A stretch of 64,000 bases of DNA from Miscanthus floridulus (Eukaryota > Streptophyta > Magnoliopsida > Poales > Poaceae): positions 13,755,925-13,819,924 of the forward strand of contig NC_089581.1 in NCBI RefSeq assembly GCF_019320115.1, written 5' to 3'. The notes below the pieces were generated by a model that was not told where the DNA came from, did not search any database, and worked only from the letters and a program-made list of their open reading frames with translations. The position numbers were made by a program, and so were the translations under genes. Below are positions 3,600 through 54,524 of the stretch, piece after piece (position 1 is the first letter of the stretch; every line of letters begins with the position of its first letter).

Positions 3600-5160
3600 C
3601 GCCGAGGACTCCTCGGTGCTCGATCATCGCCAATGACGCTGGAGACTCCTCGCTCCTCGGTGCTTGGTCATCACCAGTGACGCCGGGGACTCCTCGCTCC
3701 TCGATGCTCGGACATCACCAGCGATGCTAGGGACTCCTCGCTCCTTGGTGCTCAGATATCGCCAGCGATGCTGGGGACTCCTCGCTCCTCGGCGCTCGGT
3801 CATCGCCAGCGACGCCGAGAACTCCTCGCTCCTCGGTGCTCGGTCATCGCCAGCGACACTGGGGACTCCTCGCTCCTTGGTGCTCGGACATCGCCAGCGA
3901 TGCCGAGGACTCCTCGCTCCTTGGTGCTTGGTGCTTGGTCATCGCTAGCGACGCCAGGGACTCCTCGCTCCTCGGTGCTCAGACATCGCCAGCGACGCCG
4001 GGGACTCCTCGCTCCTCGGTGCTCGGACATCGCCAGCGATGCCGGGGACTCCTCGCTCCTTGGTGCTTGGTCATCGCCAGCGACGCCGGGGACTCCTTGC
4101 TCCTTAGTGCTCGGTCATCGCCAGCGATGCCAGGGACTCCTCGCTCCTCGGCGCTCGGTCATCGCCAGTGACGCCGGGGACTCCTCGCTCCTCGGTGCTC
4201 GGTCATCGCCAGCGATGCCGGGGACTCCTCGCTCCTCGGGGCTCGGTCATCGCCGCCTACACCGGGGACTCCTCGCTCCTCGGTGCTCGGTCATCGCCGC
4301 CAACGCCGGGGACTCCTCACTCCTTGGTGCTCAGTCATCGCCAGCGACGCCGGGGACTCCTCGCTCCTCGGTGCTCGGTCATCGCCGGCGACGCCGGGGA
4401 CTCCTCGCTCCTCGATGCTCGGTCATCGCCAGCGATGCCGGGGACTCCTTGCTCCTCGGTACTCGGACACCGCCAGCGATGCCGGGGACTCCTCGCTCCT
4501 CGGTGCTCGGTCATCGCTAGCGACGCCGGGGACTCCTCGCTCCTTGGTGCTCGGACATCACCAGCGACGTCGAGGACTCCTCGCTCCTCGGTGCTCGGAC
4601 ATCGCCAGTGACGCCGAGGACTCCTCGCTCCTCGGTGCTCAGTCATCGCCAGCGACGCTAGGAACTCCTTGCTCCTTGGTGCTCGGTCATCGCTAGCGAT
4701 GCCGGGGACTCCTCGCTCCTCGGTGCTCAGACATCGCCAGCGACGCTAGGGACTCCTCGCTCCTCGGTGCTCGGTCATCGCCAGCGACGCCGGGGACTCC
4801 TCATTCCTCGGGGCTCGGTCATCGCCGCCTACGCCGGGGACTCCTTGCTCCTTGGTGCTCGGTCATCGCCGCCAACGCCAGGGACTCCTCACTCCTCGGT
4901 GCTCAGTCATCGCCAGCGACGCCGGGGACTCCTTGCTCCTCAATGCTCAGTCATCGCCGGCGATATCGGGGACTCCTCGCTCCTCGGTGCTCGGTCTTCG
5001 CCAGCGACACTAGAGACTCCTCGCTCCTCGGTGCTCGGACATCGCCAGCGACGCCGGGGACTCCTCGCTCCTCGGTGCTCGGTCATCGCCAGCGACACCG
5101 GGGACTCCTCGCCCCTCGATGCTCGATCATCGCCAGCGACACCGGGGACTCCCTTGCTGC
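3600..5160 (+). repeat. 44-bp minisatellite, about 35 copies, inside N1
   Basis: The unit is TCGCTCCTCGGTGCTCGGTC followed by ATCGCCAGCGACGCCGGGGACTCC, repeated head to tail with 5-15% variation. Because 44 is not a multiple of three and the unit has no stop codon, all three + frames stay open over long stretches. That produces spurious ORFs of up to 250 codons with a 44-residue super-repeat. The array is flanked on both sides by GGACTAAGTGGGCACACTTC (near 3533 and 5341). The GGGGACT core resembles the polypurine tract just before the 3' LTR, so the array may have grown from that region. Confidence 0.93.
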
Positions 5161-11759: not shown

Positions 11760-12525
11760 TGTTGACACCATTTTTTTGCACATGTCAAAATGATCAGAGT
11801 GGGCTAATCGGTAGGAGGAAAGTTACTGTATACGCTGACAGTCGATGAAAATCAGCTTGTAAAGATGGTTGCCGATGAATGGTGGTGATCGATGGAAAGG
11901 TTGATATAGACTTGAGCGTTGCCGATAAGGTTGGAGATGTTATTGTCGATGTCGATGAAGGAAGGCTTGAAAACTACTGTCGATGAAACAGGAAGTATGC
12001 CGATGGAAAGGAGGTCGGTGAGAATTCCATCGTAATTGAGGCGGACAGGGAAATAGATAGGAGTTGATTTCCTTTTCTATATTTGTTAGAGTATGATTCA
12101 TGTAAGAGTCACGTGTTTCCTTAGATATGGACTTGGTGTCCTAGTCGTATTTGGTTATGTCTCTTTAGATCAGGATATAAATATAGATTGAGGGGCAATG
12201 TAATATATATCAATCAATATCAAAACCAATTTTTACTCCTATTTGCATCTACTTACTTTTCGGCGACTTCGTCAATTTGCATATTTTTCCTTTTTACGAG
12301 TTCTCATTGATTCGGCAAGTTGCATCGCTTCAGTGTGACCTTCGGCAATTCTCGAGTTCCGCGTGAGTACCTCTTGGCCATGACTTCCGGGCGTATCGCT
12401 GTTGTTAGGACCAAAGTGCTCGTATCTTCATCCTTGTCGATTAACAGGTCAAATCGACTGGCACGCTTTGGATATCGATTCGGGTATTAGCCCTTTGTGT
12501 TTGTAGATCCACTTTTGCATCAACA
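11760..12525 (+). repeat. 5' LTR of element C (766 bp)
   Basis: It pairs with 23380-24144. It starts TGTTGACACCATTTTTTTGC and ends TTTTGCATCAACA. It carries a TATA box at 12176-12186. Confidence 0.95.
12176..12186 (+). promoter_or_regulatory. TATA box of the element C 5' LTR
   Basis: TATAAATATAG lies 416 bases into the LTR and is repeated in the 3' LTR at 23795-23805. It is the likely core promoter for the genomic RNA. Confidence 0.6.
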
Positions 12526-23379: not shown

Positions 23380-24144
23380 TGTTGACACCATTTTTTGCAT
23401 GTGTCAAAATGATCAGAGTGGGCTAATCGATAGGAGGAAAGTTACTGTATACGCTGACAGTCGATGAAAATCAGCTTGTAAAGATGGTTGCCGATGAATG
23501 GTGGTGATCGATGGAAAGGTTGATTTAGACTCGGGCGTTGCCGATAAGGTTGGAGATGTTATTGTTGATGCCGATGAAGGAAGGCTTGAAAACTACTGTC
23601 GATGAAACAGGAAGTATGCCGATGGAAAGGAGGTCGGTGAGAATTCCATCGTAATTGAGGTGGACAGGGAAATAGATAGGAGTTGATTTCCTTTTCTATA
23701 TTTGTTAGAGTATGATTCATGTAAGAGTCACGTGTTTCCTTAGATATGGACTTGGTGTCCTAGTCGTATTTGGTTATGTCTCTTTAGATCAGGGTATAAA
23801 TATAGATTGAGGGGCAATGTAATATATATCAATCAATATCAAAACCAATTTTTACTCCTATTTGCATCTACTTACTTTTCGGTGACTTCGTTAATTTGCA
23901 TATTTTTCCTTTTTACGAGTTCTCATTGATTCGGTGAGTTGCATCGCTTCAGTGCGACCTTCGGCGATTCTTGAGTTCCGCGTAAGTACCTCTTGGCCGT
24001 GACTTCTAGGCGTATCGCTGTTGTCAGGACCAAAGTGCTCGTATCTTCATCCTTATCGATTAACAGGTCAAAGCGACTGGCACGCTTTGGATATCGATTC
24101 GGGTATTAGCCCTTTATGTTTGCAGATCCACTTTTGCATCAACA
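23380..24144 (+). repeat. 3' LTR of element C (765 bp)
   Basis: Second copy of 11760-12525, followed by the ATACT duplication. TATA box copy at 23795-23805. Confidence 0.95.
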
Positions 24145-37082: not shown

Positions 37083-37237
37083 ATTCGGCTGTTCTTGTAT
37101 CGGCTTGTAGCTTATTCTCTCAAAGAACACTGTTGAATCATACAGCCGAACACCCTAAATTCGGTTGGTTCCGGATAATTCAACAGTGTTCTGTGAGAGA
37201 GAATAAGCTGAAACAAGCCGATACGAGAACAGCCGAA
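37083..37237. mobile_element. Foldback MITE (155 bp)
   Basis: TTCGGCTGTTCTTGTATCGG at the left end is mirrored by CCGATACGAGAACAGCCGAA at the right. The arms extend about 58 bp with a few differences, meeting near AACACTGTTGAAT. It has no coding capacity. The target duplication is unclear. Confidence 0.8.
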
Positions 37238-40924: not shown

Positions 40925-41465
40925 GTGCACGATTTGGCGCTGCCACCCGCACATCTCTCCGCACCCACCTGTGACCTGCCCATACTCAGAAGCGCCCCAC
41001 GCACCCTCTCTCTCTCTCTCTGGCGAGCACCTCACCGCGTGGCCTCCTCCCCGCGCCTGCGCCCCACCGGCTCCCCGCACCCGCACCTGTGCCCCACCGC
41101 CTCCTCCGCGCGCGGCCATGGTGGATGCGTCGCCGGTGACGGCGGATCCACACCAGGTAGGCCTCCTCCTCCAGGATCTGCTTTCTATGGTTTCGACGAG
41201 CTCCTCCTTATCTTCTCCAATTCCGACGGGGTATAGAATGGCCGGTCGGGGGAGGCAGGTAGGCCAGACGGTGAGGATGGTCGATGGGCGGTTTAGAGGA
41301 GCTAGCGGCGGCAGGGACAGTCGGCTTAGATCGGGCGGGGGAGCTCTGGCCATGGTGGTGGTAGGGGGCGGGGAAGAAGATGGCAACCGTGGAGCTCCGG
41401 CGAAACCCTAGCTCGCCGCGACGGGGCAGCGAGGTTGCCAACTAAAAGCTGTTGTGAGGAGGTGT
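40925..41465 (+). other. GC-rich segment, possible 5' end of a host gene, cut by element F
   Basis: A CpG-rich leader with a (CT)n run is followed by GCCATGGTGGATGCG (ATG at 41118) and a short open stretch MVDASPVTADPHQ ending at a possible donor CAG|GTAGGC. The composition is like a grass first exon. Element F interrupts the locus at 41465, and nothing recognisable as the rest of a gene follows at 54525. I do not recognise a protein family. Confidence 0.3.
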
Positions 41466-44400
41466 TGTAACACCCCGGTGTTATGCCAGCATTTGGGCAC
41501 TGCAAATCATGCATATCATGCATCATCAAGCATCCTAATCATACATGCCTAATCATGTAAATAATAACTGAAACACTGCTTCGAAACATACGAAACATGC
41601 TCGTGAAACATGAATGTTGCATACACTTGTTTAGGGTTGTTTTTGCCCAAAGTATGCTTGCTAGTATTAGTAAAACATGTTTGGCTATGATTGTAAATCA
41701 TCTAGAATTGTTTAGCACAATTTTTGGAGCAAGGTTTGTATTTAAATTATTGCCAAATTTTGCTTTAAAAATAATTCTCCAAAAATTAGGGTTTTGAAGT
41801 AATATTGAGTTTAATTTGGTAATCAAAATCTATTTGGAAATTGACTTTGGTCATAAAAGCAAAGTTGTAGATATTGAAAAATGGAACAAATTTCATTTTA
41901 CACCAATTTTGTGAAAATGCTTTTAAATGGCTCAAAAATGGGAATTTAATTCTGTTTATTTAAGAAATAAAAAGAAAAATTTTTCATTTTCGCTTAACAG
42001 GCCGCCGCTCCGCTTCCCAGCCCACGGCCGAAGCCGGCATGGCCTGCATCCCTGTCTGCCGCGCATTTCTCCCTGGCCAGCAGCGCTTCGCCGGCCCAGG
42101 CCCACGCCGTGGCCGCTCCCGCGCGCAGACGCGCCCGCCTTCCCCACCTGCCCGGCCGCCACGCGGCGCCTATACACCGGCGGCGAGGGGCGGTGCCTGC
42201 TCCGACCGGCCGCGCCCCGCCTTCAAAGTGGTCCAAGCGCGCGCACGCCACCCCACTCTGCCATTTCACTTCGCCACCCTCCCTGCCTCTCGCTCCGCAG
42301 CAGCAGCAGCGCCCGAGCTGCCAAGCTCGCCGACGCGCTCCGCCGGCGTCGAGCTCCCACACCACCGCACCATCCCTCGATTCACGCCGCCAGCAGTTCC
42401 ACCTCGTTAATCTCCGTCGCTTGCGCTCGCTCGCGGCTGCCGGCGTCGAGGTGAGGGCCGAACTTGGCGCCTCCTTCCTCTTCTGCAAGCATGCTGCCGT
42501 GGCCACGCGGACCGCCACGCTGTCGGGCCAGCTCCTCTCTATCAGTCGGTGTGGCTCAGCATGTTGAGCACGCTGGCACCACCCGCGCCACGGAGGGGCT
42601 CGCCGTCGGTGAGCACCGGCTGGCGGAGCACCTCCCCTGCCCCCGGGTCGCTGACCCGCAGGGCCCAGCCGCAGTGGCTGGCGAAGGCCCCGGGTGGCTG
42701 GCCAGTGGGCCGGTTGACCCACTGGGTCCCGCCTATCTGTCTCTCTGGCGCGGGTTTTGGGTGAAGAACCAGGTGGATCTAGCAGATTTGAGCATGAAGT
42801 TTAAAAGGATTTCAAAAATGATTTTTCAGATTTCTATTTAAATGCTTTGGAAAATGTTTGTGTACTCCTTTTGGCTCCAAATTTGTTGAAACAAATTTTG
42901 TTGTATTCCTTGTCACCAGATCTACATGATAAAATTTTTGTATGTCATTTTGATATACTTTTCTGTAGAGCTTTATTTAATCCTTGATATTGCTGATAAC
43001 TTGAAAAATGTGTAGAAAAACCTATAGGCTTCAGAAAAATATGATTCTAAGTTTGTTAATCTTCTTATATAATGTACTTCCTAGGAAAAATATGTGTCAT
43101 GCATGTACTGTAGAAAAATTATGAGGTGTAGTTCAAGTGTCTTTAATGGCTGATTTTTGTTATTTTAGCTAGAGAGCAAACTTTGTATAAAACATGCATG
43201 TGATAATTTTTGTACAGTGATTGTATGCTATGAAGATCATAGGAAAAATGCTAACTCTATTGTTTGACACTTTTCACAATACAAAGTATTTTCATGTTCA
43301 TAATCATGCCATAGCTTGTTATTTTTGTGTAGGCTAATCCACTCATTCAAATACCATGAAAATCTGATAGTAGACTACTTAGGGTAGTACTGTGCTATGG
43401 TAATTTTCTAAGATTTTTCTAAGCAATAAAAATAGATGTTGCTATTCAAACCTATTATTAATTAGGGTTTAATCAAGTGTTGCTTTATGTGTGATTAAGA
43501 AATTAGTGAAGTTTTGGTGTATCTTTGAAGCATTTAATAAGATGTGTTGATTTAACATATTAGTAGTAGAAGAGAATGCAGTAAATGACATGTGCTTGTA
43601 GTATATGTTCTTGGATGGTGTTGGCTACCTTGTATTCAAGCATATCCCTTGTATTCATCTCATTCGATGCACCGATTGCATAAGCACTTATGCACATTGC
43701 ATCATATAGGATCGCAAACCGAGAACCCAGTCATCATACCTGAGGAGCCCGAGGAGCAGCTCGAGGTGCAGCCATAGGAAGTGCCCGAAGCTGACGAGGA
43801 GGACGTTGAGGAACTTCCAGAGTGCCCCGATCACCGCCCGAGCTCCTTCGAGAGAGGAAAGCCCGGAGCATTTTCTCCCGGTTTGCAATTATTAATTAAA
43901 TGCTCTACTTTAATTGATGCATTACGTTCAGAAGTTGTTTGCAACCACTGCTGCATTATACCTTGTCTACCTTTATTATACTATATCCTTATTACCCTGG
44001 TATCCGCAGTCGAGTCAATGCTTAGCTGGCTTAGACCGGTAGAAGTCAGGTGATTTCCTGTCACCTGCGAGCTATAGGTGGTTACCTGGATCTGCTTGGA
44101 TGACTATGAAGTCATGGTATAACTAAGTGTTAAATGAAGTTGAGACCGGACGGAGACTTATAGAGTTTTGGACTGTAGTGCTTTCCGTCTGTGTCGATTA
44201 AGGACCGACCGTTGTTGGGCCTCGAGTCATGTTGAACGCATGCCTTAAATTTAGCTGGCCGAATAAAGTACCTTCTGACCATGAAGCTGGGAGATTATTC
44301 GGGCCGAGTAGATTGCCCGTAGCGCACTGTACCGGAGCAGATGTGGTAGGACACGGGGGCGAGGTGATAAGACCAAAGTGCAGTCGGTCGGCCCCCGGGT

Positions 44401-45321
44401 ACATGTGGTTCCTGGCAAACTCGAGATACCTAGATAGTTGACTTGGTGATCAATACCTCACTTTAGCAGGTGAGTGAGGTTTGTGTAAGGAATAAATCAC
44501 CAGCTGGTTAGGAATCGATTCGAATCGCCATCGCTCCTAGATAGTGAGCACTTGACTTGAGTGACTTCATCGTAGTAATGTTGATGGAACACTTGGACAG
44601 TTATAATGAATATGACATTATGGAAGTTGTTTAATGATCATTGGTTATCGTTATCTGCTTAATCACATGTTTGCTCTAGTATAGGTGCAAATCTAGTCGA
44701 CGGGTTAATAACAATTAACTTGACAATAATGCTTTTGAAAAGGGGTCTTGAAATGCTAAAAATGCTTCTTTTTGCAAATGAGTCAGCTACCCTACTATAC
44801 AACCCTTCATAATCCTTGGTGTCACTTATTTTCGGTTATGGTAAGTCTAGCTGAGTACCTTCTTGTACTTAGGGTTTTATTCCCACTTGTTGTAGATGGG
44901 TAGATATATTACGGCTACTGTATCAACTGCCTTTATCCTGCGATGGGTGATGCTTAGGACCATGGGCATGGTCATTCCTTACGTCTCATCTGATGCTTTT
45001 GTTGGAGATGATCATTCGCTGGCACTGTATTTGAACTCCGCGTGAGTGTGTGTGGTTTGAACAAATGGCTTCCGCTACTTTTATCCGAACTTGTTTTGTA
45101 ATAACAATGTTTAAACTCTGATGTATCTGAGATGCAAACTTTTATGTAATATGTGATGGTGACCGCTAAACTTATTACAATCTTGGCTGGAATGGAAGTT
45201 GGTTTGAAATCCTTCGTGATTTCACGGACTACCGGCTTATACGGGCTTAAGTTTGCTAAATCGTCTGCTCTGGTGGATGATTTTCTTACTTAATTTCGTA
45301 TAATTGGTCGGTTCTGTTACA
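41466..45321 (+). repeat. 5' LTR of element F (3.86 kb)
   Basis: Full-length LTR. It has a GC-rich block (42000-42760) with long but compositional open frames, and a splice-donor-like CGAG|GTGAGG at 42451 that is conserved in the 3' LTR (52978). The second half is AT-rich. Segment 43530-44857 is missing from the 3' LTR but is related to solo LTR D, so it is ancestral. Confidence 0.93.
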
Positions 45322-45323
45322 GC

Positions 45324-45335
45324 TGGCATCAGAGC
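45324..45335 (+). promoter_or_regulatory. Primer-binding site of element F (initiator tRNA-Met)
   Basis: TGGCATCAGAGC, two bases after the 5' LTR, matches the standard TGGTATCAGAGC with one T-to-C difference. Confidence 0.85.
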
Positions 45336-46110
45336 ATGGTTTAGCGTGTTACCGTTCACAAGTATATTTAAAACAAAAAGGCATTTGAAAAACGTGATTT
45401 CCAAACTATAAAGTGTGCCAGTGGTCATATCCTTTATGCCCTGTTAAGGACTTTAGGTGGCTTAATTAAGTACTGACTTGGGGTTCTTGCATCATATTTC
45501 TCTTTTGTCGCTCATATGGCGTGCTATTGTATGAGTGCCACTTGTTTGAGTGGTAGTGTATGGATCAATTGCCTCTACGCCTCGGTAAGTGTGAGTTGTG
45601 AGAGCATAATCGGATACACCGCCGATCTAGGGTGAATGCTTATATGATGCTGGAGTAATTACATGTTCTACGCATGTTTTACAAAGGTATCTCATGTGTG
45701 GGTCTTCTATCTGTTGAGGCGATGCCGTCAATAGGACGATGGTTCGGGTAGTTACTACCGTTGTACACATATCTGGGGATTCGTGTAGAGCGTGTAGATA
45801 AAATTTACTGCTTTTATGCATTCATTGGGAATTGGGCTGAAATGAATCTTTTGCAGGTACATAACAATGCTATCGTGTAGAACGTATTAGCTACATATTG
45901 AGAGATCGTTTGTATCCCACCGAATTCGTCGTTAGAAATTATTCATTTCATAAGTTTGTGAGAACGTACGGCACGTACATACATCATATTACTTGTGCAT
46001 TTCATTCATGTCATGCATTCCTCCCCTTATAAATTGATTATCTCATTTTGATAAAAGTTGTATCACCTAAAATATGTTTCCATGAGGTAATAAAAGAACT
46101 TTTGCTATAG
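45336..46110 (+). other. Leader between primer site and first ORF of element F
   Basis: 775 bp without coding signal. It ends in CTTTTGCTATAG directly before the ATG at 46111, a good match to a 3' splice site. Confidence 0.5.
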
Positions 46111-47100
46111 ATGGCCCGCATGAAGCAAACCGCCCGTAAGTCCACCGGACGAAGAGCACCTCGACATCCGTTGGCCCTGAGGGAGCACCGCACTACGGAC
46201 ACCTTCTTGAGCAAGTTTGGCATGCCGACTTTGCTTTGGAGAGTGCTCCATGATGTGGGGTACCCAGAGGGTCAAGAACCGATGTACTCTTGGAATGAGA
46301 CCCAGTTAGCAAAGGATGGACTTATAGTGGTAGAGATCACGGTTCCTGCTCTCGGTGATGCTCCAGATTGGGATGGTTGGCACTTGGAGTTTGAGGGTCG
46401 CACCCCTGCTGAGGGTGCAGAGGGAGCAGCTTTCTGTGTCATCAGGGATATCATGAGCAGATTTCCTAGTGAGCTTGCAGCAGCTCTAGCTGGCACCTTT
46501 CCTAGGGATGATCCTCGTGATACCATTTGGGTTTAGCCTCAGGGAAGTGCCTTGGTCAGAGGCCTAGCTGAGGGACAGGCTAGCGACAACCATTCTATGA
46601 GTGCTATGTTCGCCACCATCAGAGCGTATGAGGGTCTCGAGAGTACCTACTGGACTTTGACTGGCTTGCGTGGTCAGGATAAGCTCAAGGGGAGAAAGCA
46701 GAAGAAGAGATAGGCACGTGCTATAGCTAGCTTACAGGAGCAGTTAGCTGATATGAACTTACAGTGGAACCAGGCGGTTGAGAGAGGTGATAGAGCTATG
46801 TAGCGGGTGCATACGTTGACTCAAGCCAACAACAATGCAGACCGCATGATTGGATAGTTGGTTCAGGAAAGGAATGAAGCCTAGGACGAGAGGGACCTTC
46901 TGCTGCAGAGGGTCGATGAGCTAGAGGAATACAACGGCAACCTGCATGAGGAGTTTCACACACTCTACAATGGGGTTGGCCCATATGCTCCACCAGACGC
47001 TGCTGGCATGGATATCGACAACGACAATGAGGACGAGCCTGTAGTTTCACCTAGGGGCGATGGTGACGTATCTAATCCTGACGATGGCCCCAAGGAGTAG
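46111..47100 (+). pseudogene. Extra ORF of element F with a histone H3-like N-terminal tail and a coiled-coil-like C-terminus
   Basis: One uninterrupted frame of 329 codons broken only by five TAG codons (46534, 46711, 46801, 46855, 46882) and no frameshift. After Met the product begins ARMKQTARKSTGRRAPR; plant H3 begins ARTKQTARKSTGGKAPR. Lys4, Arg8, Lys9, Ser10, Thr11 and Arg17 of H3 are kept. Thr3 is Met (ACG to ATG would be CpG decay), and Gly13-Lys14 are Arg-Arg. Soon after comes LALREHR, recalling H3 VALREIR. Residues 30-140 (WNETQLAKDG, WHLEFEGRTP) match nothing I know. The last half is Gln/Glu/Leu/Arg-rich and coiled-coil-like, with an acidic end. It lies between primer site and gag, a place where Tekay elements normally have no ORF. 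Function unknown; the H3 resemblance suggests a chromatin-related role. A host histone gene is excluded because the histone fold is absent. Confidence 0.75.
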
Positions 47101-47464
47101 GCTAGTTGCCTTGCGCTAGTATCTAGGTCCTGTCGCGATGACCTTTCTTTTGTTGGCATGTAACCTAATGTATTTTGATTCGAACTTATGAGACTTGGCA
47201 TGTGGTTGGAACTTGATTAAGAATGCGATATCTGAACGCATAAAAGTCCAGTGTATGTATGCTGGCAGTTTGGTTGTATGGACGCGATGTTTGCCGTTGA
47301 AGTAATTTGATTAAGTGCTATTGTTTTAATTGGGATGCGATTGTTGTGCCTCTGTTTTATTGTATGAATTTATTCTCTCCAGTAAATTTAGTACGGCATA
47401 ATTTTTCCTTCACTCGCAAATATTATAGCTTCACTCAATCATTACTTGTTGCTGAAATATACAG
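47101..47464 (+). other. Spacer between the extra ORF and gag of element F
   Basis: 364 bp, AT-rich, non-coding. It ends in GAAATATACAG directly before the gag ATG, again splice-acceptor-like. Confidence 0.5.
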
Positions 47465-48643
47465 ATGACAAATACTCGCCGAACCACGTATGAGGCCGCT
47501 GAGACCGGTGCTAATGGTGCGGGGACCGGTGGTGGTGGTAGAAACCACGGCAACAACAATGAGCCTCCTCATGAACCGCATTTGCCACCTCCTCCCCTGT
47601 TTACCCCAGAGATGTTTCTCGCACAGTTGCTTGGGAGTCAGCGCAACGCGGAACAATCCCAGAAGAACATGGAGGATTTTATGCGTACCATCGCCAACAA
47701 CGTTCAACGCGGTAACAATCAGGGTGGTGGCATTGGAGTGAACCAATATAGCAGCTTCAAAGATTTTATGGACACCAGGCCGCCAATATTCAAGGAAGCA
47801 ACAGAACCACATGATGCTAAAGAATGGATAAACACTATGGAAGATAAATTCCGTGTGTTGAGGATGACTGAGGTATTAAAAACTAAGTATGCTGCACTTC
47901 AGTTGCAAGGACCAGCAGGAATGTGGTGGAAGCACCATCGCATAACCTTCCCTCCAAACGCTCAGATTACGTGGAGAGAGTTTGCTGAGGCCTTCCGTGG
48001 AGTTTATATTCCACCTGGGCTGACCGAGATGAAGTTGGGAGAGTTCTTGGCGTTAAATCAGGGCACCAAGACCGTGACGTAATATCTGCATGCCTTCAAC
48101 AACTTGTGTCGTTATGCTCCCGACATGGTTGATACCGATGCTAAGAGAATAGCCAGTTTCAAGAGGGGACTCAATCCAAAAATGATGAAGCATGTGGGTA
48201 CCAACAGCCACATCAGATTCAATGACTTCATCAGTGACTATCTGAAGCAGGAAAAGAACAACAACGCCAGCACCACAGCCAAGACTCGCAAGAGAGCCCT
48301 TGAAGGTGGTCTGTCCCAAGCAAGAGCACCTGCAGGAGGTCATCCTCCATATCGCCCATCGGCACCTGGTGCGAGGTTCAGGCCACCTCAGCAGAGAAGT
48401 CAGAATTTCCGTGGACCCCAAAAGCCTTACAAGATGGCAGTACAGCCCAACAAGGCAGCCACAACTATGATACAAGGCAGTTCCAAGGGAGCTATGGGAT
48501 CTGCTGGGACAGTGAGGGGACCCTGCTATAACTATGATCAACCTGGCCACTTCTCGAGGTTTTGTCCGTATCTACCCAAGAAGAAGCATCAGACTTATAA
48601 TGCTAGGGTGCATAGTATGACTGTGGATGAAATTCCTGAGGGA
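47465..48643 (+). pseudogene. Element F gag
   Basis: The start is ATG 47465 (MTNTRRTTYEAAETG). A Gly/Asn-rich N-terminus is followed by the gag domain (RPPIFKEATEPHDAKEWINT, QLQGPAGMWWKHH, WREFAEAFRGVYIPPGLTEM), then a basic linker and a zinc knuckle CYNYDQPGHFSRFC at about 48524. Its second Cys has become Tyr, so nucleic-acid binding would be impaired. One TAA stop lies at 48080. Gag and pol share one frame, so a fused Gag-Pol protein is expected, as in other chromoviruses. It builds the particle. Confidence 0.9.
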
Positions 48644-49012
48644 GAGCCCATCACTGCTGGTAAGTTTCCTGTCAACGAAAACCCTGCAGTTGTTCTCTTT
48701 GATTCTGGATCATCGCATTCTTTTATGAGTCAAGCATTTGCACAGAAATATGAACAACTATGCATAGAATTAGGTTATGGTTACTGTATAAGCTCAGTAG
48801 GGGCTGATGTTTTGACCAATTGGATGGTTCGAGGGGCAACCCTTGAATTAGGTAGCAGGAAGTTCCGAGTAAACTTGATAGTTATGCTTGGACTAGTTTT
48901 GGATGTCATTATAGGGATGAATTGGATGAAGGATTGGGGAGCAGTCATAGATACTGGAAGTTGAGTACTTACCCTTAAGGATCCCCTGGGTGAGGGTACT
49001 TTCCAAGTACCA
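48644..49012 (+). pseudogene. Element F aspartic protease
   Basis: The active-site motif VVLFDSGSSHSFMS (near 48695) and the second conserved block VILGMNWM-like DVIIGMNWMKDWGAVIDT (near 48903) are both present. A TGA stop at 48962 closes the frame before RT resumes in the same frame. It would cleave the polyprotein. Confidence 0.85.
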
Positions 49013-50400
49013 TTGCCTCGGAGAACAGATCTTATAAGTGTGACATGTGCTATGGCAGTCATTCCTATTCATCAGATTCCGGTAGTGTGTGAATTTCCGG
49101 ATGTATTCCTGGATGAGCTACCTAGTCTTCCACCGGATAGGGAGATTGAGTTTGGAATTGAGTTAATCCCCAGAACAACTCCGATTTCAAGGAGACCCTA
49201 TCGGATGCCTCTAGATGAATTAGCTGAGCTGAAGAAGCAACTAGAAGACTTATCAAAAAAGGGGTTTATCCGGCCAAGCAAGTCTGAATGGGGATGTCCC
49301 GCCTTGTTTGTGAAGAAGAAGAAAGAGGGCACATTGAGAATGTGCGTAGATTACAGGCCACTCAACGCTATAACCATAAAGAATAAGTATCCCTTGCCTC
49401 ATATTGATGTTCTATTTGACCAGTTAACCAAGGCCAAGGTGTTCTCAAAAATAGATTTGAGATCCGGTTATCACCAGATCAAGATTAGGCCATAGGATAT
49501 ACCGAAAACTACATTTTCCACCAGATACGGGTTGTATGAGTATCTTGTCATGTCCTTTGGCTTGACAAATGCTCCTGCATACTTTATGTTTTTGATGAAT
49601 ATAGTTTTCATGCCAGAATTGGATAAGTTCGTGGTGGTGTTCATCGATGACATTCTGGTGTACTCTAAGAACGAGAAGGATCATGAAGAGCATCTGAGAA
49701 TTGTCTTGACCAGACTTAGGGATCATCAACTGTATGCTAAGTTTAGCAAATGTGAATTCTGGTTAAAGAAAGTTCCTTTCCTTGGTCACATTCTATCAGA
49801 AAATGGAGTTTCAGTCGATCCAGGTAAGGTGCAAGAGGTTATGGATTGGAAAGCACCAACCACAGTTCTTGAGATTAGAAGTTTCTTAGGACTAGCCGGT
49901 TATTACCGTCGCTTTATACTAGACTTCTCGAAGATTGCCAAACCGATGACAAGTCTGCTACAGAAAGATCACAAGTTTGTGCGGACAGAGGAGTGTGAAG
50001 CAGCTTTCCACACTTTGCGGAAACTGTTGACCACTGCTCCTGTTCTAGCACAACCAGATATCAAGAAACCATTTGATGTGTTTTGCGACGCATCGAAGAC
50101 TGGATTGGGATGTGTTCTTATGCAAGAAAGGAGAGTCCTTGCTTATGCTTCATGTCAATTGAGAAAGCACGAGGTCAACTATCCAACGCATGATCTTGAA
50201 CTTGCTGCAGTTGTGCATGCCCTAAAAATTTGGAGACATTATCTACTTGACAATGTGTGCAATATTTTCACGGATCACAAGAGTCTTAAGTACATCTTTA
50301 CCCAACCAGAGCTGAACATCTTTACCCTAAAAATAGATGGTTGGAATTGATCAAGGATTACAACTTGAATGTGTAATATCATCCTAGAAAAGCCAATGTA
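49013..50400 (+). pseudogene. Element F reverse transcriptase and RNase H
   Basis: RT blocks include [54 protein letters not shown], the catalytic [11 protein letters not shown] (near 49645), and [17 protein letters not shown]. RNase H follows from about 50075 ([27 protein letters not shown]). A TAG stop is at 49493 and a one-base frameshift lies between 50310 and 50340, just before [13 protein letters not shown] stop is near 50373. The domains are otherwise well kept. Confidence 0.92.
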
Positions 50401-51942
50401 GTGGCAGATGCTTTGAGCAGAAAGTCACATTACTTGAATGTGCAGCCATTACTTGAAGATGGGTTCGATCTGATGCATCCTGCTGTGTTACATAGTATTC
50501 AGATTAGTTGCTCTTTGGAGAGTAAGATAATAGAAGGTCAGAAAACCGACAAGGGAATATTCCACGTCAAAGAGAAAATCAAAGAAAATCCATCTCAGCA
50601 CTTTAAAGAGGATGAACAGGGCATGTTGTGGTTTGACAACCATCTTGTGGTTCCCAAGGATTGAGAGCTTAGGAATAAACTCATGGATGAAGCTCACCTT
50701 TCTAAGCTATCTATCCATCCCAGAAGTAGTAAGATGTATCAAGAACTCAGATCTCGTTATTGGTGGACCAAAATGAAGAAAGAAATTACAGCATATGTTG
50801 CCAGATGTGACACATGTTGTCGAGTGAAAGCCATTCATATGAAACCTACCGGTATGTTGCAACCCTTGTCAGTCCCTAGTTGGAAGTGGGACGATATCAG
50901 TATGGATTTTATCTCGGGTTTGCTCACTACTCAAAAAGGACATGATTCGATTTGGGTGATTGTGGATCGTCTTACCAAGACCGCTCATTTCCTACCTGTC
51001 AAGACAACTTATCGACCACCTCAATATGCCGAGAAGTATATCACAGAAATTGTGAGGTTGCATGGTATACCAAAGACCATAGTATCTGATAGAGGCTCAC
51101 AGTTCATGGCTCACTTTTGGGAACATTTACACAAAGGCTTAGGAACTAATTTGATTCGTAGTACCGCTTATCATCCTCAGACAGATGGTTAGACTGAACG
51201 AGTGAATGCTGTTTTGGAGGATATGTTAAGAGCCTGCATATTGTCTTCTAAGGGATCGTGGGAGTCGTGGTTACCATTAGCTAAGTTTTCTTACAATAAT
51301 AGTTATCAAGAAAGCATCAAGATGGCTCCATTCGAAGCTTTATATGGCAGAAAATGTAGAACACCATTGAATTGGGTTGAGCCTGGAGATAGAAGGTATT
51401 ATGGCATTGACTTTATAGAAGAGGCCGAGAAGAAAGTTCATATTATTCAACAAAATATGAAGGCGGCCCAATCGCGTCAGAAAAGTTATGCAGACAAAAG
51501 AAGGAGACCCCTTGTGTTTGAAGTTGGTGACTATGTTTATCTGAAGGTCACGCCAATGAAGAAGAAAAGGTTTGGAGTCCGAAGAAAGCTTGCCGCTAGA
51601 TTCATAGGACCATACAAGATCCTAGAACAAAGAGGTACGGTAGCCTACAAGTTAGAGTTACTCGAGACAATGAGTACCGTTTTCCCAGTTTTCCATGTAT
51701 CACATCTCAAGAAATGTTTGCGTGTTCCGGAGGAAAGAATAGAACCTTGAGGCATCCAACTCAAATTAGATTTGGTGTATCGTGAGCAACCAGTCCGTGT
51801 GTTAGACACTAAAGAACGTGCTACTCGGAGTAGTGTGGTGAAAACATACAAGATACAGTGGGATCATCATGATGAGGGAGATGCAACTTGGGAAACAGGA
51901 GAATATCTACAAAAAGCTTATGAAGATTTTTATAACAAATAG
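50401..51942 (+). pseudogene. Element F integrase with C-terminal chromodomain
   Basis: The zinc-binding segment has HLSKLSIHP and CDTCC (50695-50820). The catalytic core has Asp in SMDFISG (about 50905), Asp in SDRGSQF (about 51090) and Glu directly after the TAG in TDG*TERV (51190-51199). A GPY/F module (ARFIGPYKILEQRG, 51600) is followed by VFHVSHLKKC. The chromodomain spans about 51790-51939: RVLDTKERATRSSVVKTYK, IQWDHHDEGDATWETGEYL. It keeps the central Trp but lacks part of the aromatic cage, as in the group II chromodomains of Tekay elements. Stops are at 50662, 51190 and 51748. Chromodomain integrases steer insertion to heterochromatin. Confidence 0.92.
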
Positions 51943-51974
51943 TTCGTAACCCAAATCTCGGGACGAGATTTTTA

Positions 51975-51988
51975 TAAGGGAGAAAGGC
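51975..51988 (+). promoter_or_regulatory. Polypurine tract of element F
   Basis: AAGGGAGAAAGGC lies directly before the 3' LTR, a typical Tekay tract. Confidence 0.8.
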
Positions 51989-54519
51989 TGTAACACCCTG
52001 GTGTTATGCCAGCATTTGGGCACTGCAAATCATGCATATCATGCATCATCAAGCATCCTAATCATACATGCTTAATCATGTAAATAATAACTGAAATACT
52101 GCTTCGAAACATACGAAACATGCTCGTGAAACATGAATGTTGCATACACTTGTTTAGGGTTGTTTTTGCCCAAAGTATGCTTGCTAGGATTAGTAAAACA
52201 TGTTTGGCTATTATTGTAAATCATCTAGAATTATTTAGCACAATTTTTGGAGCAAGGTTTGTATTTAAATTATTGCCAAATTTTGCTTTAAAAATAATTC
52301 TCCAAAAATTAGGGTTTTGAAGTAATATTGAGTTTAATTTGGTAATCAAAATCTATTTGGAATTTGACTTTGGTCATAAAAGCAAAGTTGTAGATATTGA
52401 AAAATGGAACAAATTTCATTTTTACACCAATTTTATGAAAATGCTTTTAAATGGCTCAAAAATGGGAATTTAATTCTGTTTATTTGAGAAATAAAAAGAA
52501 AAAATTTTCATTTTCGCATAACAGGCCGTCGCTCTGCTTCCCGGCCCATGGCCGAAGCCGGCCTCGCCTGCATCCCCGCCTGCTGCGTGTTTTTTCCTGG
52601 CCAGCAGCGCTTCGCCGGCCCAGGCCCATGCCGCGGCCGCTCCCGCGCGTAGACGCGCCCGCCTTCCCCGCCTGCCCGGCCGCCACGCGGCGCTCGTACA
52701 CCGGCGGTGAGGGGCGGTGCCTGCTCCGACCGGCCGTGCTCTACCTTCAAAGCGGTCCGAGCGTGCGCACCCTACCCCACTCCGCCATTTCACTTCGCCA
52801 CCCTCCCTGCCTCTCGCTCCGCAACAGCAGCAGCAGCGCTCGAGCTGCCAAGCTCGCCGACGCGCTCTGCCGGCGTCGAGCTCCCGCACCACCGCACCAT
52901 CCCTCGATTCATGCTGCCAGCAGTTCCGCCTCGTCAATCTCCATCGCTTGCGCTCGTTCACGGCTGCCGTCGTCGAGGTGAGGGCCGAACTTGGCGCCTC
53001 CTTCCTCTCCGGTGAGCATGCTGCCGTGGCCGCGCAGACCGCCACGCCATCGGGCCAGCTCCTCTCTGTCAGTCGGTGCGGCTCAGCGTGTTGAGCACGC
53101 TGGCACCACCCGCGCCATGGAGGGGCTCGCCGCCGGTGAGCACCGGCCGGCGGAGCACCTCCCCTGCCCCCGGGTCGCTGACCCACAAGGCCCAGCCGCA
53201 GTGGCTGGCGAAGGCCCGGGTGGCTGGCCAGTGGGCCGATTGACCCGCTGGGTCCTGCCTGTCTGTCTCTCTAGCGTGGGTTTTGGGTGAAGAACCGGGT
53301 GGATCTAGCAGATTTGAGCATGAAGTTTAAAAGGATTTCAAAAATGATTTTTCAGATTTCTATTTAAATGCTTTGGAAAATGTTTGTGTACTCCTTTTGG
53401 CTCCAAATTTGTTGAAACAAATTTTGTTGTATTCCTTGTCACCAGATCTACATGATAAAATTTTTGCATGTCATTTTGATATACTTTTCTGTAGAGCTTT
53501 ATTTAATCCTTGATATTGCTGATAACTTGAAAAATGTGTAGAAAAACCTATAGGCTTCAGAAAAATATGATTCCAAGTTTGTTAATCTTCTTATGTAATG
53601 TACTTTCTAGGAAAAATATGTGTCATGCATGTACTATAGAAAAATTATGAGGTGTAGTTCAAGTGCCTTTAATGGCTGATTTTTATTATTTTAGCTAGAG
53701 AGCAAACTTTGTATAAAACATGCATGTGATAATTTTTGTACAGTGATTGTATGCTATGAAGATCATAGGAAAAATGCTAACTCTATTGTTTGACACTTTT
53801 CACAGTACAAAGTATTTTCATGTTCATAATCATGCCATAGCTTGTTATTTTTGTGTAGGCTAATCCACTCATTCAAATACCATGAAAATCTGATAGTAGA
53901 CTACTTAGGGTAGTACTGTGCTATGGTAATTTTCTAAGATTTTTCTAAGTAATAAAAATAGATGTTGCTATTCAAACTTATTATTAATTAGGGTTTAATC
54001 AAGTGTTGCTTTATGTGTGATTAAGAAATTAGTGAAGCTTTGGTGTATCTTTGAACCTTCTCGTACTCAGGGTTTTATTCCCACTTGTTGCAGATGGGCA
54101 GATGTATTACGGTTACTGTATCAACTGTCTTTATCCTGCGATGGGTGATGCTTAGGACCATGGGCATGGTCATTCCTTACGTCTCGTCTGATGCTTTTGT
54201 TGGAGATGATCATTCGCTGGCACTGTATTTGAACTCCGTGTGAGTGTGTGTGGTTTGAACAAATGGCTTCCGCTACTTTTATCCGAACTTGTTTTGTAAT
54301 AACTATGTTTAAACTCTGATGTATCTGAGATGCAAACTTTTATGTAATATGTGATGGTGACCGCTAAACTTATTACGATCTTGGCTGGAATGGAAGTTGG
54401 TTTGAAATCATTCGTGATTTCACGGACTACCGGCTTATACGGGCTTAAGTTTTCTAAATCGTCTGCTCTGGCGGATGATTTTCTTACTTAATTTCATATA
54501 ATTGGTCGGTTCTATTACA
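51989..54519 (+). repeat. 3' LTR of element F (2.53 kb, internally deleted)
   Basis: Collinear with the 5' LTR, except that sequence equivalent to 43530-44857 is missing at the junction TCTTTGAA|CCTTCTCGTAC near 54056. Followed by the GGTGT duplication. Confidence 0.93.
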
Positions 54520-54524
54520 GGTGT

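Follow-up and report, generated by a model that had tools for sequence, protein, structure and literature searches.

An H3-like start in a chromovirus reading frame

Why does a grass retrotransposon encode a protein that begins like histone H3? The question is raised by an open reading frame (ORF) at 46111 to 47100 of a 64,000-nucleotide stretch of Miscanthus floridulus DNA (the window, to which all positions refer). The ORF lies in a long terminal repeat (LTR) retrotransposon, and its product is an accessory protein of a chromovirus of putative Tekay/Retrosat2 type. By comparing two families of copies of this ORF, we found that the H3-tail copy is kept by purifying selection between them while the rest of the protein diverges.

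Codons 1-18, translated from 46111, read MARMKQTARKSTGRRAPR. As the initial annotation of this DNA had stated, 14 of the 17 residues after Met are identical to H3 1-17. Chance resemblance to H3 can be ruled out, since the best H3 match was 7/17 in the window's other five frames (six-frame translation) and 9/17 in 100 shuffles of its six frames. The ORF also stands where that annotation had placed it: in an LTR element, after the primer site (45324-45335) and ahead of gag (47465). Its description as one ORF spanning 46111-47100 did not hold: the frame is open for 141 codons only, and five in-frame TAG codons follow (codons 142, 201, 231, 249 and 258, at 46534, 46711, 46801, 46855 and 46882) before the terminal TAG at 47098. 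That each of the five is a TAG would be expected from transitions at methylated cytosines.

Conservation of the tail among relatives

Three protein searches gave 15, 115 and 595 matches (120 of the 595 listed), and the proteins assembled from them number 178 without duplicates. Many other database proteins start at an internal Met or Val picked by the gene caller and are uninformative on the tail. We assembled 30 sequences that cover the N-terminus (29 proteins and the window), each having 26 or more residues ahead of a conserved FGMPTLLW block. An H3-like tail was present in 27 of the 30, which we sorted by eye into four groups: I, to which the window belongs, II, III and V, the last consisting of the degenerate P0164 alone. 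P0104, tailed and mosaic-looking, was set aside from the 27. Two sequences of a sister clade, P0168 and P0172, are tail-less, as is P0155, whose call starts too late for it to be counted.

A domain tree was built from 31 rows (18 tailed, 3 tail-less and 10 of unknown state), leaving out P0104 and nine tailed sequences with short or shifted bodies. A branch with 100/100 support separates the three tail-less proteins from all other rows, and a single gain or a single loss suffices for the distribution of the tail on this tree. As a separate observation, P0104, P0109 and P0168 have a common upstream leader (MALSHQ-YMLMVQ), after which P0109 has the tail and body of group II and P0168 goes on without a tail; P0104 joins a group II tail to a body of the tail-less clade. 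This pattern reflects either recombination or an assembly chimera.

The likeness to H3 is confined to the tail. The tail of P0009 matched H3 chains of the PDB (best E 1.3e-4), and over Met plus residues 1-26 the identity to H3 is 70% for P0009 and 74% for P0082, with the similarity ending at about residue 27. An H3 N-terminal tail was found in the window and in its relatives, these two included. Judged by sequence, the arrangement is that of a histone-tail mimic: a terminal H3-like peptide with a potentially methylatable lysine on a non-histone protein.

Which residues are kept follows a clear pattern among the 27 tailed sequences. K9, P16 and L20 are retained in all 27, A1, A7 and S10 in 26, R2, T3, T6 and T11 in 25, and K4 and R8 in 24. 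K14 is kept in only two (Arg in 24), K18 in none (His in 18, Arg in 6), K23 in none (Arg in 24) and K27 in none, at a place where the alignment is loose. The methylated lysines are thus kept (K9, and mostly K4), while the acetylated K14, K18, K23 and K27 are replaced in nearly all members. Between clades I, II and III, identity was 0.77-0.86 over H3 1-21, 0.23-0.38 over the next nine residues and 0.55-0.60 over residues 32-90.

No relatives were found in the viral_contigs and plasmids collections. The genome_contigs collection gave seven matches covering only residues 1-29 or less, which are probably ordinary H3 genes of contaminating eukaryotes.

Copies in the source genome and selection on the tail

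We searched the source genome (G000; 2.68 Gb in 2420 contigs, the window lying on C2) with a family I query, the first 141 residues, and with a group II query, P0074. Of 8732 and 8447 candidates, respectively, 150 each were scored, and all of them match from residue 1; both queries carry the tail, so that these samples favour tailed copies. In the loci analysed, the best 30 of family I and the best 20 of family II, H3 1-12 is exact in 43/50, K4 and K9 are present in 50/50, and K14, K18 and K23 in 0/50. A frame of 307-329 amino acids is open from the tail ATG in 13 of the 50. The primer-site motif TGG[CT]ATCAGAGC stands upstream of the ORF at 784-789 nt in 23/30 family I loci and at 762-832 nt in 16/20 family II loci.

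A tail-blind control used P0150, which begins past the tail, as the query; of 12947 candidates 134 were scored, and upstream sequence was read for the 30 best of these. An in-frame H3-like tail (at least 11/21 residues) was found in 29 of these 30 loci. K4, K9, S10, G13, P16 and L20 are present in all 29 tails, R8 in 22, K14 in one and K18 in none. In the sole tail-less locus, L085, only the last residues of the tail (APFHQLA) are recognisable upstream of the domain; another locus, L077, shares the preceding THK stretch with it, yet keeps the tail from about position 4. The initial annotation had staked its proposal on the H3-like start being neither missing from homologous ORFs nor peculiar to this copy, and this mostly holds: beside the 27 of 30 sequences and one mosaic stand the 29 of 30 loci from the source genome.

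Selection was estimated from Nei-Gojobori counts (proportions of differing synonymous and nonsynonymous sites, pS and pN, and the corresponding distances, dS and dN) across the 30 family I and 20 family II loci. For H3 1-12, pS was 0.475 and pN 0.012, with a dN/dS of 0.016; for H3 1-21, dS was 1.10 and dN 0.085, with a dN/dS of 0.077. By comparison, the domain (residues 32-117) gave a saturated pS of 0.759, a pN of 0.326 and a dN of 0.428, and the linker a pN of 0.593. The codon at position 18 occurs as CGT and CAT in both families. Between the families, the first 12 codons differ at roughly one in two synonymous sites while the peptide hardly changes; therefore, the tail is under purifying selection. 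The low dN/dS that the initial annotation had proposed looking for is found in the tail codons, far below 1 between families, and its core idea stands: an element-borne H3-tail copy is retained in relatives and in own-genome loci, under selection. Its further expectation, that the first 12 residues are more conserved than the rest, stands for dN between families I and II and fails by protein column, where the difference is not significant.

Several observations weigh against the reading of the tail that we prefer below. For the tail, the codon data comprise only about 10-18 synonymous sites, from loci picked as top matches to queries with a tail, and pS is lower there (0.48-0.58) than in the domain (0.76). 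Within family I, dN/dS is higher in the tail (H3 1-21) than in the domain (0.355 against 0.127); within family II the two are alike (0.147 and 0.140). The protein-column test of tail against domain gave p = 0.057 for three clades and p = 0.27 with clade V included (P0164 at equal weight), neither of them significant. A tail-less sister clade exists, and group III keeps K4 in only 3/6. The tail-blind loci, which may overlap with the P0074 loci, are nearest to group II (26) or III (4), with none from family I, the window's own. Many of these copies are decayed: 9 of the 29 tail-blind tails are interrupted by stops (position 5 in 3, 17 in 2, 18 in 1 and 19 in 5). Retention of K4 and K9 in decayed copies is weak evidence, because AAG (Lys) is little hurt by C-to-T decay; only the between-family codon data count for selection.

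The body of the protein

The initial annotation held that the histone fold is absent, and indeed none was found: the H3 similarity of P0009 and P0082 stops as described above, no Pfam histone model matched, and the P0009 model has a different predicted order of elements. A histone remnant that still has its fold can therefore be ruled out. A possible second H3 similarity (LALREHR against the H3 alphaN helix) was dropped, since no such match appeared when P0009 and P0082 were compared with H3 by BLAST over their whole length.

Instead, the predicted model of the homologue P0009 and its structural matches show the alpha-beta-beta-beta-alpha fold of a double-stranded RNA-binding domain (dsRBD). 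In Pfam scans, no dsRBD family profile matched at E up to 1, and none at E up to 10 for the first member (full list) or for 40 members (25 of 47 families listed). No Pfam domain exceeded the curated cut-off in the middle region (in the 40-member scan, among the 25 of 47 families listed), and a BFVD structure search gave no match at E <= 0.001. In dsRBDs, the RNA contacts lie in a KKxAK motif at the start of helix 2; Lys or Arg occupies its three positions in 0/40, 3/40 and 0/39 members. A predicted helix of 142 residues in the homologue P0120 (124-265) supports the coiled-coil-like end that had been proposed from the sequence. By prediction, then, the tail would be disordered and the domain after it dsRBD-like but lacking the RNA-contact lysines, with a long coiled coil and an acidic end completing the protein.

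The element that carries the ORF

The features of the ORF and its element are collected in Table 1.

Table 1. Coordinates of the 5' extra ORF, its parts and the surrounding chromovirus
Feature	Position	Strand	Remarks
5' extra ORF (ORF0/aORF type)	46111..47100	+	329 codons plus stop; broken in this copy
Leader	45322..46110	+	789 nt, 20 upstream ATGs
H3-tail mimic	46114..46176	+	aligned to H3 residues 1-21
Fast-evolving linker	46177..46203	+	aligned to H3 22-30; between-clade identity 0.23-0.38, pN 0.593
dsRBD-like alpha-beta-beta-beta-alpha domain without KKxAK	46201..46461	+	codons 31-117; by homology to P0009 model
Coiled-coil region	46591..46971	+	approximate; aligned to homologue P0120 helix 124-265
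Acidic C-terminal segment	46999..47097	+	approximate
Chromovirus LTR retrotransposon	41466..54519	+	LTR pair 95.6-96.4% identical, TG...CA ends
5-bp target site duplication GGTGT	41461-41465 and 54520-54524		flanks element 41466..54519
5' LTR	41466..45321	+	split by ~1.33 kb insertion at about 43530-44856
Primer binding site TGGCATCAGAGC	45324..45335	+	two bases past 5' LTR
gag, first part	47465..48082	+	PF03732 E 1.1e-7
Chromodomain match, after integrase	51793..51924	+	PF00385 E 0.0024, below curated cut-off
Polypurine tract AAGGGAGAAAGG	51976..51987	+	ahead of 3' LTR
3' LTR	51989..54519	+	

The element shows the Tekay/Del traits of a TG...CA LTR pair with a 5-bp target site duplication, a primer site and a 5' extra ORF, and its putative assignment to the Tekay/Del type rests on these features rather than on reverse transcriptase phylogeny. 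The primer site TGGCATCAGAGC is of the initiator-Met type, with one mismatch to the motif of that type. Over 2531 aligned columns, 90 transitions and 14 transversions separate the two LTRs (Kimura two-parameter distance, K2P, 0.043), which at a rate of 1.3e-8 per site per year gives an age of about 1.6 million years. The insertion in the 5' LTR is absent from the 3' LTR. In the chromodomain match, compared by eye with the HP1 sequence, the first and third cage aromatics are absent, which is the type II pattern. In the part of PMC3350952 covered, type II chromodomains are described as missing the first and usually also the third of these aromatics. In the region 47450-47476, the sequence ending in ATATACAG directly before the gag ATG resembles a 3' splice site, and splicing out the upstream ORF could give a gag message.

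Elsewhere in the window we noticed an array in which a GC-rich unit of 44 bp recurs about 35 times (3609-5152; 86% matches), a pair of direct repeats of ~766 bp that are 96.5% identical (11760-12525 and 23380-24144) and are probably the LTRs of another element, and a near-palindromic stretch of ~154 bp (37084-37237), possibly a foldback element.

What the tail may be kept for

The reading we prefer, plausible though somewhat short of probable, is that the protein acts as a decoy or adapter for host readers or writers of H3K9 or of unmethylated K4. The protein would be nuclear, and with Met removed, Ala1 and the tail would be exposed as in H3. K9 of the exposed tail would be open to methylation by the host, and the coiled coil would present the tail in several copies. 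The tail may then occupy KYP/SUVH4-type methyltransferases, the chromomethylases CMT3/ZMET2 and the Pol IV recruiter SHH1. According to the part of PMC7617993 covered, SHH1, which has a link to Pol IV recruitment, reads unmethylated K4 together with methylated K9, CMT3 is a reader of H3K9me2, and the BAH domain of ZMET2 uses H3K18 of the same tail, along with K9me2, for stimulation. Since K9 is kept and K18 lost, reader binding without stimulation of ZMET2 is predicted: a reader held by the K18-less tail would be occupied and not fully activated, and silencing of the element would be blunted.

Cast more specifically as an anti-silencing weapon, the decoy idea becomes doubtful. Here the tail would be methylatable at K9, recognisable at K4 and non-acetylatable at K14, K18, K23 and K27, with the K18 contact that switches on ZMET2/CMT3 gone, and the dsRBD-like domain would engage the small-RNA branch; the loop between H3K9 methylation and DNA methylation, together with Pol IV recruitment, would be trapped in an unproductive state. 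If true, this would help explain the high copy number (at least 150 scored copies per family, two families and thousands of candidates). A selected H3-tail mimic on a high-copy endogenous retrotransposon would then be a direct counter-weapon over plant H3K9 and DNA methylation, and a function would be found for some or all of the 5' extra ORFs in chromoviruses of grasses. The lysine pattern makes mimicry directly testable, with K9 against mutants and with K18 present or absent.

The tail might instead serve as a chromatin tether, which targets and does not suppress: once the host has methylated K9, heterochromatin readers or the type II chromodomain of the element itself would bind it, and it would so bring particles or the integration complex to heterochromatin or aid assembly. 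We regard this as a fairly unlikely reading. The same element does hold a chromodomain match of type II pattern, and the predicted coiled coil could link complexes. In the parts of the papers covered, PMC6317226 gives the partner of type II chromodomains as unidentified, and PMC11728184 considers that aORF proteins may shape insertion preference; a selected H3-tail mimic would be a candidate for that partner. Against it, recognition of methylated K9 by a type II chromodomain is doubtful, because the cage aromatics are missing, in type II generally and here by eye.

It is unlikely, too, that the tail is kept merely as a basic or nuclear-entry peptide whose H3 likeness was inherited from a captured H3 5' end, with no mimicry. 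The N-terminus is basic (net charge +5, +8 and +7 over residues 1-37 in three proteins), and grass 5' aORF proteins are predicted to be nuclear (PMC11728184, in part). Yet T3, A7, S10, T11, G13, P16 and L20, unneeded for charge, are mostly kept (25-27/27), and Arg and Lys are swapped in only 2/27 at position 4 and in none at position 9, whereas positions 14, 18 and 23 have changed.

More improbable still is that the protein works through its dsRBD-like domain, which as a type-B dsRBD would pair with DCL or DRB proteins and disturb small-RNA silencing, the tail being secondary. A neutral relic, that is, a functionless captured H3 fragment, would fit the open frame of at least 300 amino acids from the tail ATG in only 13/50 best-hit loci and the stops in 9/29 tail-blind tails, and can practically be dismissed, as it is already contradicted by the between-family dN/dS (0.016 for H3 1-12, 0.077 for H3 1-21) and by retention of the tail across clades.

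Comparison with known systems

The H3 resemblance of such ORFs is very probably already in print. The abstract of Steinbauerova et al. 2011 (Genetica) reportedly states that some 5' extra ORFs of Poaceae chromoviruses are partially similar to the histone H3 gene, and these are said to have been treated there as captured sequence; they are very likely of the same families as the present ones.

The initial annotation knew of no such ORF in Tekay elements; 5' extra ORFs of the grass Tekay/Retrosat2 type are in fact described (PMC3485330 and PMC11728184, each covered in part). Like the present ORF, ORF0 of Retrosat2 is an extra ORF ahead of gag-pol in long-LTR grass chromoviruses; with those of RIRE3, RIRE8 and the maize and sorghum homologues, it is reported only from grasses, with its function not established, and as divergent in sequence, structure and predicted function (PMC3485330). 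Its mean Ka of 0.2574 and mean Ks of 1.6471 in Oryza (PMC3485330) we read as constraint. The likeness to our ORF is drawn from its description, and the word 'histone' is absent from the text of PMC3485330. The Tekay 5' aORF of sunflower, maize, sorghum and rice has the same position and a predicted nuclear product, the sunflower protein lacking sequence similarity to the grass ones (PMC11728184). Compared by description, the maize and sorghum aORF proteins are structurally DRBM-like, in agreement with the fold predicted here; a dsRNA-related role has been suggested for them, whereas the present protein is without the RNA-contact lysines (PMC11728184). 'Histone' does not occur in that paper either, and no H3-like ORF or domain is mentioned among the extra ORFs and domains in the parts of PMC7264820, PMC6317226 and PMC9289625 covered.

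Among literature titles and abstract openings, in a coverage outside which most subscription journals fall, we found none that reports a retrotransposon with an H3-tail mimic. In the literature covered there was likewise no account of selection on such a tail, of which lysines it keeps or loses, of absent RNA contacts or of a sister clade without the tail. Compared with histone H3 itself, the present protein has the tail in common; the fold was not found, and almost every member has other residues at K14, K18, K23 and K27. Viruses are known to practise histone mimicry, and their mimics likewise put a brief likeness of the H3 tail at one end of a protein that is not related to histones. The present mimic differs from these in being N-terminal and about 21 residues long, and in its carrier, a high-copy endogenous retrotransposon family whose protein joins it to a dsRBD-like fold and a coiled coil.
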